Assembly (NCBI RefSeq): GCF_900114655.1
Contig: NZ_FOTT01000020.1
Span: 1-55,657, forward strand
DNA length: 55,657 nt
DNA from: Candidatus Frackibacter sp. WG13
GTDB lineage: Bacteria > Bacillota > Halanaerobiia > Halobacteroidales > Acetohalobiaceae
Direction: 5' to 3'
In this document: positions 20,475-55,657 of the stretch, piece after piece
How positions within the stretch are numbered: position 1 is the first letter of the stretch
How the letters are laid out: each line of letters starts with the position of its first letter
Translations under genes and position numbers: made by a program
Notes under the pieces: model-generated
Databases searched by the model: none
What the model was told of the DNA's origin: nothing
What the model saw: the letters and a program-made list of their open reading frames with translations, nothing else

Positions 20475-20567
20475 TTCTCTTGATAAAGGCACTCTTTCTG
20501 AAAAGTAAGTTCGCAAAGCTTTGAGTCTAAGGTATTATACTAAGGTTGTCAAAGCTGCCAAAGGGAA
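20475..20567 (+). ncRNA. Cyclic di-GMP-I (GEMM-I) riboswitch aptamer, divergent
   Basis: P1 is TTCTCTT (20475-20481) paired with AAGGGAA (20561-20567). Inside lie the GEMM landmarks GATAAAGGCA, a P2 hairpin with a CTGAAAAG tetraloop-like element, TCGCAAAGC, a TCTAAGG turn and the closing AAAGCTGCCAAA. These match the known class I c-di-GMP aptamer order; the P2 loop and the TTCGCAAAG junction differ from the textbook form. A terminator hairpin and a Spo0E-like gene follow, giving a standard transcription-control layout. The better copy is at 43257-43348. A GEMM-Ib specificity (cyclic GMP-AMP) is not excluded. Confidence 0.82.
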
Positions 20568-20588: not shown

Positions 20589-20640
20589 AAAGCCTTATTC
20601 CTTTTTGGTTTGATATAAATAGGAATAAGGCTTTATTAAT
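20589..20640 (+). terminator. Riboswitch expression-platform terminator
   Basis: AAAGCCTTATTCCT (20589-20602) and AGGAATAAGGCTTT (20621-20634) form a perfect 14-bp stem between the aptamer and the Spo0E-like start. T residues follow only sparsely. Presumably this is the on/off hairpin of the riboswitch. Confidence 0.8.
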
Positions 20641-20680
20641 TGTTATCAACTTTAATATATTATAAATTGGAGATGTTAGT

Positions 20681-20839
20681 ATGTTAAAAGAAAAGGATCT
20701 AAATAAAAAAATTGAAAGGTTAAAACGAGAACTTTTAATGATTGCTAGCACAGAAAATAAAAGAACTAATGAGAATGTTATTAAAAAAAGTAAACAACTA
20801 GATAATTTAATAGTTAATTTTATGAAGTCAAAAGAATGA
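20681..20839 (+). CDS. Spo0E-like aspartyl-phosphate phosphatase
   Basis: A 52-residue two-helix protein. The first helix is amphipathic and charged (KIERLKRELLM); the second carries the family signature SKQLDNLIVNFM, where the S-x-x-L-D core corresponds to the catalytic Spo0E motif. Spo0E proteins dephosphorylate Spo0A~P and so hold back sporulation. ATG at 20681 is eight bases behind GGAG. It lies downstream of a c-di-GMP-I riboswitch and its terminator, so its synthesis should depend on c-di-GMP. Two further homologues are at 31901 and 43448. Confidence 0.83.
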   Translation: MLKEKDLNKKIERLKRELLMIASTENKRTNENVIKKSKQLDNLIVNFMKSKE

Positions 20840-20858
20840 ATTTGCTTTATAACTTTAG

Positions 20859-20955
20859 AAAAACAGAGTTAAATTATTATTTTATATTATGTGGGTCGTG
20901 GCAAGCATCACAAGTGATTATATATTTTAAAAATAATTTTTAAAGCTCTGTTTTT
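20859..20955 (+). ncRNA. Conserved structured RNA of unknown type (copy 1)
   Basis: Outer stem AAAAACAGAG (20859-20868) with CTCTGTTTTT (20946-20955), then AAATTATT (20871-20878) with AATAATTT (20932-20939). The loop contains a 27-nt block at 20886-20912 (core GGGTCGTGGCAAG then ATCACA) that recurs with one change at 43773-43799. The stems of the two copies differ in sequence but keep pairing. It lies between a Spo0E-like gene and the PP2C gene, 48 bases before the latter. I do not recognise an RNA family; it could be a riboswitch or a terminator with a conserved loop. Confidence 0.6.
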
Positions 20956-21002
20956 CTTATTTTAATTTTATAGATATTTTGTTTAGCTGAAGGGGTGAGC
21001 GA

Positions 21003-23063
21003 ATGCTAACATTTTTAAAAGATAAAACGTTTGAGGACTTAGAAGAATTTAAAGAATATATTTTTACAAAAGCAGAACAATTTCGATTGATTTTAGAAAG
21101 TATAAAAGCAGGAATAGTTGTTATAGATGAAAATGAAGAATATGTTTACTTTAACAATGAAGCTAAGAAACAAATGAGAATAGATGGTTTTATGGAAGGG
21201 AAATACTTAGAAAGCTGTCATTCTTCATCAAAATATCAAAAAGCCAAAAAAATAATTAATAGTTTTAAAAATGGAAGACGAACTAGTTTTACAAGAGAAG
21301 CCAATTTTTTTGGTAAGAAATATGCAATATATGTTAATCCCTTAATAAATGGAATAGGAGACTATTTAGGAGCAGTACGTTTGAGTGTAGATATTTCTAA
21401 AAGAAAAGAATTTGAAGAAAAATTATTAAATGCAAAACAGAAATATGAACAGTTATTTGAAAACTCAGGAGAAGCTATTTTAGTAGTTAATACAGACTCA
21501 AAAAGAATAGTAGATCTTAATCAAAGAGCCATAGAGTTATATAAATATAATTTAAAAGTAGAATTATTAGGAAAAGATGTTAGAGAATTGGTTGCTAGAG
21601 ACTTAAAAGAAGTTGATGATGATATGGGGAAAGTAATAGACAATAAAGTTTATACTTTTGCAAGTAAACACAAATGCAAAACAGGAGATATCTTAGATGT
21701 AGAATTAAATGCTCGATTAATAGATTACGATGGGGAAGAATGTTTTTTATATAATATTAGAGATATAACAGAAAAAGTTAAGATTCAAAGACAAAAATAT
21801 AAGGCACAAAGATTAAAACATAGGAACCAATTATTTAAAAAAATTAATAACCTATATAAGCAATTTACAAAAATAGAAGATAAGGTTCAGTTTAATAAAT
21901 TTTTAGAAAGAGTGTTAAATGAATTAATAAAGTTCTCTCATTCTAAAGAAGGAATTATTTTAGTAAAAGATATTTTTCAAGGAGAAGGATACTTAGTAAA
22001 GTCAACTATAAACACAGCTAATCAACATATTGTATCTTTATTTAATGATATTAAAAACAATTATACAATTGATGAAATAGATACAAGAATTTTGATTAAA
22101 AATGAAATTAATGAAAATAACATTTTAAATGAAAAACTGAGTACAAATTCTTTCCGGAGTTTGATCAGCAAATTAATAACATATGATGAAGAATTAGTCG
22201 GTGGAATAGCTTTACTCAATAAAGAAAAAGATTATATAGATGGAGATAAAGAAGTTATTAGGACATTTGTTAGTTATTTAAAAAATGGGATAGAAAAGAT
22301 AGAAAATTTACAAAGACAAATTAAGGAAGAAAAAATAAAAAAAGAAATTGATATAGCTGCACAAATCCAAGCTTCATTTTTGCCTGAGAAGAATCCACAA
22401 CGAGAAGAGTTAGAATTAGCAACTTACTCTAAAGCAGCGCAAGAAGTCGGTGGGGATTACTTTGGGTTTAATGAAAATGAGAACCAAATAGGAATATTAA
22501 TATCAGATGTAATGGGGAAGGGGATTCCATCAGCGATTATGGTTGCTACTATACATAGTGCTTTTAATATTCTAAGTAAGTTTAATCAAAAGCCTTCTGA
22601 AATATTAACTAATTTAAATAATAATTTATATAATGATTTGAAAGATTCACCAATCTTTGTTTCAGCATTTTATGGGGCTTTTAACTTTGAAACTAAAATA
22701 TTGAAATACAGCAATGCTGGACATAACCCCCCCATTGTATGGTCAGCTAAGGAACGTAAAATCCAATTGTTAAGGAACACAGGAATTTTATGTGGTATTG
22801 AACCACATTACAGTTATTCATGCAATAAAATCAAGTTGAATAAAGGAGATATCATTATTTTTTATACTGATGGTTTAACAGATGTACGTAATTGTGATAA
22901 AAAAAGATTTAAACTTGATGGTATTAAAAATTTACTTATAAAGAATAATCATTTACCAGCTCATAGATTAAAAATAAAATTAGTTAAAAAGATTAAAGAG
23001 TTTTCATTAAAACAAACACAGCCAGATGATATTAGTTTTATAATTTGTAAATTCAAAGGTTAG
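21003..23063 (+). CDS. PAS-PAS-GAF SpoIIE/RsbU-type PP2C serine phosphatase
   Basis: A 686-residue soluble sensor phosphatase. PAS 1 spans about residues 23-135 (AGIVVIDENEEYVYFNNEA), PAS 2 about 140-265, a GAF-like domain about 280-430, a coiled coil 435-460, and a PP2C-SpoIIE domain about 465-686. Metal-binding acidic motifs are present: EVGGDYFGF, DVMGKGIPSA, SNAGHNPP, YTDGLTD and QPDDISF. Such enzymes dephosphorylate a STAS anti-anti-sigma protein. A STAS gene (26376) and an RsbW-like kinase (23076) follow in the same operon, completing a partner switch. The signal sensed by PAS/GAF is unknown. The conserved RNA at 20859-20955 lies in its leader. Confidence 0.9.
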   Translation: MLTFLKDKTFEDLEEFKEYIFTKAEQFRLILESIKAGIVVIDENEEYVYFNNEAKKQMRIDGFMEGKYLESCHSSSKYQKAKKIINSFKNGRRTSFTREANFFGKKYAIYVNPLINGIGDYLGAVRLSVDISKRKEFEEKLLNAKQKYEQLFENSGEAILVVNTDSKRIVDLNQRAIELYKYNLKVELLGKDVRELVARDLKEVDDDMGKVIDNKVYTFASKHKCKTGDILDVELNARLIDYDGEECFLYNIRDITEKVKIQRQKYKAQRLKHRNQLFKKINNLYKQFTKIEDKVQFNKFLERVLNELIKFSHSKEGIILVKDIFQGEGYLVKSTINTANQHIVSLFNDIKNNYTIDEIDTRILIKNEINENNILNEKLSTNSFRSLISKLITYDEELVGGIALLNKEKDYIDGDKEVIRTFVSYLKNGIEKIENLQRQIKEEKIKKEIDIAAQIQASFLPEKNPQREELELATYSKAAQEVGGDYFGFNENENQIGILISDVMGKGIPSAIMVATIHSAFNILSKFNQKPSEILTNLNNNLYNDLKDSPIFVSAFYGAFNFETKILKYSNAGHNPPIVWSAKERKIQLLRNTGILCGIEPHYSYSCNKIKLNKGDIIIFYTDGLTDVRNCDKKRFKLDGIKNLLIKNNHLPAHRLKIKLVKKIKEFSLKQTQPDDISFIICKFKG

Positions 23064-43256: not shown

Positions 43257-43348
43257 ATTCCTCGATAAAGGCAAACTTATCGAAAGATAAGGACGCAAAG
43301 CTCGGAGCCTAAAGCTTATGCTATGGTCGTCAAGCTACCGAAAGGGAA
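43257..43348 (+). ncRNA. Cyclic di-GMP-I (GEMM-I) riboswitch aptamer
   Basis: A close match to the class I consensus: GATAAAGGCAAAC, then a P2 hairpin CTTATCGAAAGATAAGG with the GAAA tetraloop, GACGCAAAGCTC, GGAGCCTAAAGC, and GTCGTCAAGCTACCGAAAG on the 3' side. The tetraloop and its receptor, the GACGCAAAGC joint and the GCCTAAAGC turn are all present. A terminator hairpin follows at 43378 and then a Spo0E-like gene. The ligand should be cyclic di-GMP. Confidence 0.93.
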
Positions 43349-43377: not shown

Positions 43378-43424
43378 AAGTCCTATTCCTCTTTTATATT
43401 TTATTGAGGAATAGGACTTATTTA
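43378..43424 (+). terminator. Riboswitch expression-platform terminator
   Basis: AAGTCCTATTCCTC (43378-43391) and GAGGAATAGGACTT (43406-43419) form a perfect 14-bp stem. The stem core CCTATTCC resembles the terminator of the first riboswitch (CTTATTCC), as expected for a duplicated unit. Confidence 0.85.
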
Positions 43425-43447
43425 ATTTTATAATAAATTTAGAAAGA

Positions 43448-43612
43448 GTGATTACAATTAATATTCAAAGCAGAAGTGAAATTAAAAAGTTAAAGGTGGA
43501 GCTTGCTAAGATAGTTAAGGATAAAGAGAATTTGAATCATAAGAAGGTAATTAATAAAAGCCAGGAATTAGATAAGAAGATTGTTTCTTTCATGAAATGG
43601 ATAGCAAAATAA
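43448..43612 (+). CDS. Spo0E-like aspartyl-phosphate phosphatase (third copy)
   Basis: A 54-residue two-helix protein. The C-terminal helix carries INKSQELDKKIVSFM, the Spo0E core S-Q-E-L-D. The start is unclear: GTG at 43448 is the only standard start, but its ribosome site is poor, whereas AGAAAGAGTGA would suit a start a few codons further on, where only ATT or AAT occurs. It lies downstream of the better c-di-GMP-I riboswitch and terminator, so Spo0A~P dephosphorylation should respond to c-di-GMP. Confidence 0.75.
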   Translation: MITINIQSRSEIKKLKVELAKIVKDKENLNHKKVINKSQELDKKIVSFMKWIAK

Positions 43613-43742
43613 AAAGTATATTTAATGTTAATGATAATTAGGATTTTTAATTGAATTTTTGATATTAATACATTTGTTTTAGCTAAATCTTTATGAGTTA
43701 AGGATAGCTTTAAATTATAGATAGTGATCATATGTTGATAGG

Positions 43743-43842
43743 GGAAAAAGGTTAAGAGATTATATTAATTTTATTATGTGGGTCGTGGCAAGAATCACAG
43801 GTATATAATATAGTTAATTTATAAAATTAATCTCCTTTTTCC
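43743..43842 (+). ncRNA. Conserved structured RNA of unknown type (copy 2)
   Basis: Outer stem GGAAAAAG (43743-43750) with CTTTTTCC (43835-43842); then GAGATTA (43756-43762) with TAATCTC (43828-43834). The loop carries the same 27-nt block as copy 1 at 43773-43799, with one base changed. The stem sequences differ from copy 1 but pair, which is covariation-like evidence. It lies between a Spo0E-like gene and an HD-GYP gene, 60 bases before the latter. Confidence 0.6.
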
Positions 43843-43902
43843 TTCTTTATAAATTTATATTATTGGAAAATTCATTATCGAAATTAAAGAGGAGGGACTT
43901 AA

Positions 43903-44472
43903 GTGGATAACAGATTGGCTAAAGCATTTGTAGGAATTATTGAATTGAGAGATGAATATACTTCTACCCATAGTAAGAATGTTGCTAAATATTCATTACA
44001 ATTAGGTAAAGGACTTCAATTAGATAAAACGACTTTAAATAATCTAAGGTTTGCTGCTTTATTACATGATATTGGGAAAATTGCTGTTCCAGATGCTATA
44101 TTACATAAAACAACTACTTTAACAGAGGACGAATTTATAGAAGTAAAACGTCATTCAATAGTTGGTGCTAGAGCTGTAAAACAAGCAAATTTTAATGATG
44201 CAATAATACTAGGTATTCGTTATCACCATGAGTTTTTTAATGGCAATGGTTATCCTGAGGGATTAAAAGGTGAAGGGATTCCTTTAATTTCTAGGATAAT
44301 TGCTGTGGCAGATGCCTTTGATGCTATGACCTCAAAAAGACCTTATCGAGAAGCGTTTTCTCATAAGAAAGCAATTAAAGAATTAGAGAACTGTGCAGGA
44401 AGTCAGTTTGATCCAAAGATTGTTGATGTTTTTGTTGAATTGTTTGTAGACAGTCAGATGAGTTTGAATTAG
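43903..44472 (+). CDS. Stand-alone HD-GYP domain phosphodiesterase (paralogue)
   Basis: A 189-residue HD-GYP domain protein, nearly identical to that at 26949 over its first 36 residues and similar throughout. LLHDIGKIAVPDAIL carries the HD metal ligands. The signature is RYHHEFFNGNGYPEGL: one His of the RHHHE run is Tyr here, and GYPDG is GYPEG, so activity could differ. The start is GTG at 43903 behind GAGGAGGGACTT. It completes the duplicated cassette of riboswitch, Spo0E-like gene, conserved RNA and HD-GYP gene. Confidence 0.88.
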   Translation: MDNRLAKAFVGIIELRDEYTSTHSKNVAKYSLQLGKGLQLDKTTLNNLRFAALLHDIGKIAVPDAILHKTTTLTEDEFIEVKRHSIVGARAVKQANFNDAIILGIRYHHEFFNGNGYPEGLKGEGIPLISRIIAVADAFDAMTSKRPYREAFSHKKAIKELENCAGSQFDPKIVDVFVELFVDSQMSLN

Positions 44473-53887: not shown

Positions 53888-55657
53888 TACGCCAAGCAAG
53901 TTTGATATTTCTGGCAAGGTGAAGCCGTCTACTAGAGTAGACTTAGGATAATATCGATTATGAGAGATTACAACAGAACCAACGTAAATAGCTCAATGGT
54001 AAGAGCTTAAAAGATCGCCGACAGAAGGTCCACCTTTCACTACCTCACTGTCTTTGGTAAAGTGAAGGTCGTTCAATGGTTTGAGTAATATTTTAATTAG
54101 TCAATATATCTGATAACAGTCTTTGCTAGGTAAGGACTAACCATCCACCTATATCGAGTGTTGCGCTTTGAATTGGTAACAATTCAGGTGAAGTGTACAC
54201 AGAGAACTTTTTAGGCCAGAGGGAAGACCGTAATTCCTGAAGCATATTGAGCCCCGTTAGTATCGGGTCCTGGAAACAGGAGAAGAGCAGATGACGACGT
54301 AGTTAACGTTGCGGAAGTCAATACGAAGGAATTGTAAAAGGTGAGATTCCGGAGGGTCTGTCGGGGTCAGAGAACCTGGCATGAAGAGAAAGAAATATCA
54401 GGAATTTGGGAGGTCCTACAGGTTCCAATGATTATTGGAAGGTCTATCCAATCGAAAAAGAGGACGACCTGCGACTTGTAGGAAGTCGGATTAACTCATA
54501 GTACTCTGAGACCAGGAGAGCTGGTTACATGGGGAAGGGGTGACAGAAATATGTACTCATCAAAGGAAACACTAACCGGACGCGCAAGGCCGGAGCAATT
54601 AGTGCAAACCTCACTGAAGGGAATAGCAAAGAAAGCAAAACGACTCAAAAAGTATAGATTTCGTGACCTATATAGGCAGATAAACCATAGTGCTTTAAGT
54701 AAAGCTTGGGATAACATAAATAAGAAAGCAGCCGCAGGAGTAGATAAAATAACTGCCAAAGAATTTGCTAAAAACTTAAAAGATAATATTGAAAGTATAT
54801 TAGATAGCTTAATAGGTAAGCGATATCATGCAAAGATGGTACGTAGAGTGAATATAGAAAAGGACAATGGGAAACTTCGTCCACTGGGGATTCCAGTAGT
54901 TGCCGATAAAATAGTACAAAGAGCAACAGCCGATATATTAGAAGCAATTTATGAACAAGATTTTATAGATAATAGCTATGGATATAGACCAAACCGTGAT
55001 TCAAAAGTAGCAATAAAATCTTTAACAAAAGAATTACAGTTTGGCAAATACAGTTACATAGTTGAAGCAGATATCAAAGGATTTTTCGATAACATAGACC
55101 ATGATTGGTTAATAGAAATGTTAAAACAAAGAGTTAATGATAAAGAATTTATAAGGCTAATCAAGAAATGGTTAAAAGCTGGGATATTAAAAGAAGATGG
55201 ACAAGTCATTCATCCAGTTACAGGAACTCCTCAAGGTGGCATAATAAGTCCCATTCTAGCAAATATCTATCTACACTACGTATTAGATATCTGGTTTATA
55301 GGAAAAGTTAAGAAAGAATGTGCAGGTGAAGCCCATCTATGTCGTTACGCTGATGACTTTGTTTGTGCTTTTAGGTACAAAAGAGATGCAGAACGATTTT
55401 ATCACATGTTACAAAAGAGACTAAATAAATTTGGTCTAGCACTTTCATTGGAAAAGACAAATATAATCAGTTTCTCTAGATTCCGTAAATATGAAAATAA
55501 TAGCTTTGAATTTCTAGGGTTCGAGATGCGTTGGGGAACTTCAAGGAAAGGTAAGGACATAATTAAAAGGAGAACTTCACGCAAGAAACTAAGAAAATCA
55601 CTTAAGAATTTTACTAAGTGGTGCAAAGAAAATAGGAATAAGCGACTCAGAAGTTTG
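53888..55657 (+). mobile_element. Group II intron (3' end beyond the window)
   Basis: The RNA part runs from a GTACGCC-type 5' end near 53888 through about 660 bases rich in GAAA-like and GC hairpins (for example GGGGAAGGGGTGACAG just before the maturase start). The intron-encoded reverse transcriptase begins at 54551. Domain 5 and 6 and the 3' boundary are outside. The 5' boundary is estimated from the GUxCG-like consensus only. Confidence 0.85.
54551..55657 (+). CDS. ltrA: Group II intron reverse transcriptase/maturase, N-terminal 369 codons
   Basis: The frame is open from the ATG at 54551 to the window end, so the protein is partial. Reverse-transcriptase blocks: DNGKLRPLGIPVVADKIVQR (RT2), YGYRPNRDSKVAIKSL, YIVEADIKGFFDNIDHDWLI (RT3), GTPQGGIISPILANIYLHYV (RT4) and HLCRYADDFVCAF (RT5, with the catalytic YADD). 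It splices its host intron and copies it into DNA targets. Start of the maturase X domain is visible (RRTSRKKLRKSLKNF). The endonuclease part, if any, is not in the window. Confidence 0.94.
   Translation, partial: MYSSKETLTGRARPEQLVQTSLKGIAKKAKRLKKYRFRDLYRQINHSALSKAWDNINKKAAAGVDKITAKEFAKNLKDNIESILDSLIGKRYHAKMVRRVNIEKDNGKLRPLGIPVVADKIVQRATADILEAIYEQDFIDNSYGYRPNRDSKVAIKSLTKELQFGKYSYIVEADIKGFFDNIDHDWLIEMLKQRVNDKEFIRLIKKWLKAGILKEDGQVIHPVTGTPQGGIISPILANIYLHYVLDIWFIGKVKKECAGEAHLCRYADDFVCAFRYKRDAERFYHMLQKRLNKFGLALSLEKTNIISFSRFRKYENNSFEFLGFEMRWGTSRKGKDIIKRRTSRKKLRKSLKNFTKWCKENRNKRLRSL

Follow-up and report, generated by a model that had tools for sequence, protein, structure and literature searches.

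The window, that is, the whole 55,657-nt stretch of DNA analysed here, contains two units in which a c-di-GMP-I riboswitch aptamer is followed by a terminator-like long inverted repeat, a Spo0E-like gene, an intergenic hairpin, and a gene for a phosphatase or phosphohydrolase. In the first unit, the aptamer lies at 20478–20562 on the plus strand (Rfam RF01051, 59.1 bits), the inverted repeat at about 20590–20636, the Spo0E-like gene at 20681–20839 (+, PF09388), and the PAS-SpoIIE (PP2C-type) phosphatase gene at 21003–23063 (+, PF07228), with hairpin copy 1 between the two genes. In the second unit, the aptamer lies at 43260–43342 (+, RF01051, 77 bits), the inverted repeat, which has a T-rich tail, at about 43378–43431, the Spo0E-like gene at 43448–43612 (+, PF09388), and an HD_5 (HD-GYP-like) phosphohydrolase gene at 43903–44472 (+, PF13487), with hairpin copy 2 between the two genes. 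An earlier, sequence-only reading of this DNA had correctly named the Spo0E-like and PP2C-type neighbours of copy 1; the riboswitches upstream of copies 1 and 2 went unmentioned in its finding. Elsewhere in the window, a group II intron end is present at 54116–54376 (+, RF02005, 126.8 bits).

The two hairpins carry a common sequence block. The sequence-only reading had described a 27-nt block at 20886–20912 that recurs with one change at 43773–43799, and the two segments indeed agree at 26 of 27 bases, a pair for which the chance expectation is ~0.0004 in a sequence of the window's length with 30% GC. The recurrence holds; the length of 27 nt and the number of two copies do not. Specifically, the conserved block extends to 29 nt, at 20887–20915 (+) in copy 1 (TTATGTGGGTCGTGGCAAGCATCACAAGT) and at 43774–43802 (+) in copy 2 (TTATGTGGGTCGTGGCAAGAATCACAGGT), and a search of the organism's own assembly (G000; 2.77 Mb, 48 contigs) reveals four copies in the whole genome, two of them outside the window: copy 3 at G000:C24:1456-1484 and copy 4 at G000:C8:106086-106114, both on the minus strand. 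Column by column, the four aligned copies are conserved across positions 1–29 with a sharp stop at both ends, and their flanks are unrelated (p > 0.05 in 11 of 12 flank comparisons and p 0.007 in one). Recent duplication, or a repeat of the MITE type, was rejected because the flanks are mostly at background level and the outer arms of the hairpins differ.

Every copy sits between two genes that are co-directional with the hairpin (4/4). In particular, a chemoreceptor-haemerythrin gene ends ~100 nt upstream of copy 3, which is followed by a terminator-like repeat. Copy 4 is flanked by a 135-codon open reading frame and a gene for a PKD-domain lipoprotein; the surrounding stretch, on inspection of its open reading frames, contains conjugation-type and replication-type genes (VirB4-like, SSB-like). 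With its additional phage/plasmid-type regulator genes, the wider region around copy 4 (G000:C8:98001-115000) resembles an integrative conjugative element; close by is a group II intron end.

The genome contains ten c-di-GMP-I aptamers in total, and the block is absent from the other riboswitch–Spo0E units, on contig C18. There, at G000:C18:283847-284519 (−), two tandem c-di-GMP-I aptamers lie ~590 bases apart, each followed by its own Spo0E-like gene. Beyond the end of one gene, at G000:C17:12207-12290 (−), lies a further c-di-GMP-I aptamer, with a strong terminator-like repeat behind it. This aptamer faces the 3′ end of a small, convergent cytochrome-like gene that contains CxxCH motifs, and no downstream gene obviously belongs to it.

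Folding places the block of copies 1 and 2 within long hairpins. The outer stem of copy 1 is formed by AGAAAAACAGAG (20857–20868, +) and CTCTGTTTTTCT (20946–20957, +), and that of copy 2 by GGGGAAAAAGG (43741–43751, +) and CCTTTTTCCTT (43834–43844, +), in agreement with the earlier description of stems that differ in sequence and still pair. Both sequences fold better than their dinucleotide shuffles, with z-scores of −4.5 to −5.6 (copy 1) and −3.3 (copy 2). Inside the block, a GUGG/YCAY hairpin of 4 bp with a 6-nt loop is 100% paired in all four copies. The earlier description of the stem as covarying is not supported: the outer stems are locus-specific, with arms that differ in sequence among loci and cannot be aligned as covarying columns, and the inner hairpin, the sole alignable pairing, has one-sided GC/GU changes only among the four sequences, with no two-sided change and therefore no covariation proof of structure.

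These hairpins could in principle constitute a self-contained structured RNA, either a riboswitch or a protein-binding element, for which the complementarity to a cytochrome gene would be irrelevant. The strong hairpins at copies 1 and 2 and the consistent inner hairpin, with its 6-nt loop in 4/4 copies, fit such an RNA. A scan of all 4227 Rfam families at the gathering threshold gave no match at the hairpins (window and loci L003 and L005), and a permissive Rfam scan of 20600–21010 gave only a chance match (E 4.1), which fits the earlier reading, in which no named family was recognized, and, together with the missing two-sided covariation, speaks against this possibility. None of the known aptamers fits on inspection by eye, and the identification of the hairpin as a ligand-binding riboswitch finds no support. 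The complementarity described below makes a self-contained RNA very unlikely. The designation as an unassigned RNA element thus stands insofar as the element is non-coding, recurrent, hairpin-borne, and without an Rfam match, and is not supported insofar as it implied a riboswitch, or another self-contained structured RNA, that shows covariation.

The opposite strand of the block, on which the sequence-only reading was silent, has a recognizable content. The reverse complement, ACY-TRT-GRT-KYT-TGC-CAC-GAC-CCA-CAT-AA, encodes TCxxCHDPH(N/K), the motif with which multihaem c-type cytochromes bind haem; in copy 4 the first Cys codon of the motif is lost. The copies are not a gene, since the frame of the motif runs for merely 20–28 codons from stop to stop in all four. 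That the opposite strand carries a coding gene or a pseudogene of a cytochrome was accordingly rejected, there being no reading frame of useful length and the synonymous positions being fixed among the copies, and short peptides on either strand were rejected because the open reading frames are too short and unconserved. Real CxxCHDPH sites number five in the genome, all in two multihaem cytochrome clusters (contigs C10 and C11). The codons TGC CAC GAC CCA CAT are the same in 4/4 copies, and that set occurs in 0/5 real sites. Because the copies are non-coding and share synonymous-site bases absent from the real sites, the constraint on the block looks nucleic rather than protein, as judged from these bases.

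The two cytochrome clusters (G000:C10:3001-20000 and G000:C11:30001-50000) are large, with as many as 15 CxxCH motifs in a single protein, and include OmcE-like tetrahaem proteins; within the class, similar cytochromes occur in just one other genome, of the same family. No riboswitch was found at the cytochrome genes of these two clusters.

A G-U-aware search for the complement of the block, allowing ≤3 mismatches and spanning 13 whole genomes of the order, gave five matches, none of them outside this genome: the four copies plus a single further site, G000:C11:38527-38555, with 0 mismatches. Reversed-pattern controls gave 0 matches in this genome and 1 across all 13, and a perfect match is estimated to arise by chance ~5e-6 times per genome. 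The site, the nearest to the block among the five real ones, belongs to a tetrahaem cytochrome of 204 residues, in which it comprises codons 174–183, the third haem site (TCGSCHDPHN); the block pairs with it over 29/29 uninterrupted positions (25 Watson-Crick and 4 G-U pairs). The best PDB match of this cytochrome is 7tfs, which we take to be the OmcE nanowire filament of Geobacter sulfurreducens, with E 7e-17 over almost the full length (database row 'Cytochrome c'). Exact complementarity to cytochrome haem-motif coding sequence is characteristic of an antisense (seed) element rather than a ligand pocket. Two features expected of a trans-acting antisense RNA are found here: specific mRNA complementarity beyond chance, unique besides the copies themselves, and column conservation confined to the pairing region. 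A perfect, G-U-tolerant 29-nt complement, otherwise unmatched at ≤3 mismatches in 13 genomes, is not chance, contrary to what a self-contained RNA would require.

Calculated energies agree with this pairing. Duplexes with the target have energies of −48.1 kcal/mol for copies 2 and 3, −43.9 for copy 1, and −42.7 for copy 4, those at other CxxCHDPH cytochrome sites range from −25 to −37 kcal/mol, and the background, from the window and four stretches of this genome on both strands, has a mean of −11.6 and an sd of 3.7 kcal/mol. When a whole hairpin and the target are co-folded, the gain is −18 to −35 kcal/mol; shuffled targets average 0 to −6. Copies 2 and 3 differ from the exact complement at four positions, each leaving a G-U pair, and an Hfq gene present in the genome also counts in favour of antisense action. 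Several features count against it: the two shared G-U positions of the block have not been improved to A-U (the G residues there also pair inside the hairpin, in GUGG/YCAY); copies 1 and 4 have one mismatch each; the stem of copy 3 is weak (z −1.4) and that of copy 4 modest (z −1.95); about half of the block is internally paired in the hairpin model; and the target site lies late in the coding region, away from the ribosome-binding site.

The range of the element counts against antisense action as well, none having been established beyond this species in searches of the order (13 genomes), the class (59 genomes), and the phylum. A four-copy profile run against the 59 genomes of the class finds, after the copies, the antisense strand of the same tetrahaem cytochrome (E 1.4e-6) and then two cytochromes of the one sister genome with such proteins (E 0.01 and 0.06); beyond the copies, the class-wide search returns cytochrome antisense strands and weak matches, nothing else. 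With a relaxed G-U pattern in five genomes of the family, all non-copy matches are antisense to cytochrome or ABC-transporter genes, the latter at the motif RHAPHKLSGGQ, which the pattern hits in the relatives and, a single time, in this genome. In the phylum, one additional match turned up, with two mismatches (locus L118). Candidate homologues outside the genome, comprising three viral-contig matches (one sequence) and two genome-contig matches, were rejected as open reading frames or unrelated sequence. The sequence-only reading would have given up its proposal had no further homologues appeared; outside the genome that is indeed the outcome, and inside it two more copies exist.

The single-species range would suit a relic, in which part of a multihaem cytochrome gene has spread in inverted orientation into a number of intergenic sites, through recombination, a mobile element, or the like, and is now decaying, its complementarity owed to descent and serving no present function. 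The opposite strand of three copies still reads TC-D-A/S-CHDPH-N/K, and the position of copy 4 among conjugation- and replication-type genes (VirB4-like, SSB-like) makes a mobile route possible. However, the copies are near-identical over 29 nt, synonymous positions included, while their flanks are unrelated, whereas relics should drift over their whole length and recent copies should share flanks; the hairpin context and the co-directional placement are also left unexplained. We regard a relic as unlikely, though not negligibly so. A site acting at the level of DNA, for protein binding, recombination, or integration, and present also in the cytochrome gene, would account for the copy in the conjugation-like region and for the inverted repeats that flank the block. 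However, 29 nt exceeds the usual length of a binding site, the match in the cytochrome gene is antisense and fits its codons, and DNA sites have no need to share, in 4/4 copies, the sense of both neighbours; such a site is highly improbable.

The pairing could also operate in the reverse direction, with the cytochrome mRNA, or a fragment of it, as the regulator and the four hairpins as its binding sites, so that pairing would alter the expression or processing of the adjacent genes for the PAS-SpoIIE phosphatase, the HD-GYP-like enzyme, the chemoreceptor-haemerythrin protein, and the PKD lipoprotein. Four sites with one best partner, in four unrelated transcripts with unrelated flanks, are what the targets of one regulator would look like, and 3/4 sites lie shortly upstream of a start codon. 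Against this, the copies are closer to each other (shared G12 and G15) than to the exact cytochrome complement, a mutual likeness that implies a common history or a second constraint; 29-nt matches are rare at target sites; and a terminator-like repeat follows copy 3. Regulation in this direction appears quite unlikely.

On a fine balance, we judge the best explanation to be a family of intergenic or 3′UTR hairpins that present an antisense block to the mRNA of an OmcE-like, nanowire-type cytochrome, and the four hairpins together suggest a previously undescribed antisense RNA control of extracellular electron transfer. In the proposed mechanism, each copy would be transcribed together with its upstream gene as part of a short non-coding hairpin RNA, in which the 29-nt antisense block is displayed atop a locus-specific stem. 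In the cell, the block would pair with codons 174–183 of the OmcE-like tetrahaem cytochrome mRNA; mRNAs of other multihaem cytochromes would be bound less strongly, at their related CxxCHDPH sites. The duplex is predicted to block elongation, recruit RNase, or both, and thereby to reduce translation or stability and yield less cytochrome, the sign and the size of this effect being themselves predictions. For copies 1 and 2, the c-di-GMP-I riboswitch may set the dose of the hairpin RNA, which would tie c-di-GMP to extracellular electron transfer. More tentatively, and rather doubtfully, hairpin modules may have been inserted into c-di-GMP riboswitch units and other signalling transcripts, with one antisense block directed against haem-motif codons common to nanowire-type multihaem cytochromes. 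The block has G at most pyrimidine-facing positions, so that one RNA would tolerate codon variants and could tune a protein family through its cofactor-binding motif.

If the antisense mechanism is correct, a base-pairing RNA would connect extracellular electron transfer with signalling by a second messenger, in a bacterium distant from Geobacter, and antisense targeting would extend to cofactor-motif coding sequence, possibly that shared by an entire protein family. Since all 29 bp are specified, the prediction is a precise one and lends itself to simple compensatory tests. A conserved loop in a changing stem can, by this example, be an antisense block instead of a ligand pocket.

Antisense RNAs are a known kind of regulator. 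Their direction at cytochrome haem-motif codons is apparently new, pending proof of transcription, and no record of it was found in the open-access literature. Trans-encoded base-pairing sRNAs and 3′UTR-derived sRNAs of the Hfq type present, on a hairpin, a short conserved block complementary to an mRNA. The present hairpins resemble them in having such a block, in a genome with an Hfq gene, and, at copy 3, in following a coding gene and preceding a terminator-like repeat. They differ in that the complement spans 29 nt and covers a haem motif far into the coding region, and in that one block is common to four copies of a predicted RNA, two of them inside riboswitch-controlled units. The plasmid antisense RNAs CopA and RNAI, and RNA-OUT of IS10, have loop-presented recognition and are encoded opposite their own targets; the hairpins share with them a stem bearing an antisense recognition stretch, whereas the putative target here lies on another contig of the assembly. 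The likeness to the OmcE-type tetrahaem nanowire (7tfs) belongs to the putative target protein, not to the hairpin, and filament formation by that protein is at most a prediction. Cyclic dinucleotide riboswitches, among them GEMM-I cGAMP riboswitches, have been tied to extracellular electron transfer in Geobacter (e.g. PMC6456294, PMC8835794). The present case is similar in that copies 1 and 2 lie downstream of RF01051 aptamers and in its proposed link to extracellular electron transfer, and is different in that the hairpin is not an aptamer of the c-di-GMP-I/GEMM-I family and the link to cytochromes would run through an antisense RNA rather than through a riboswitch on a cytochrome gene.
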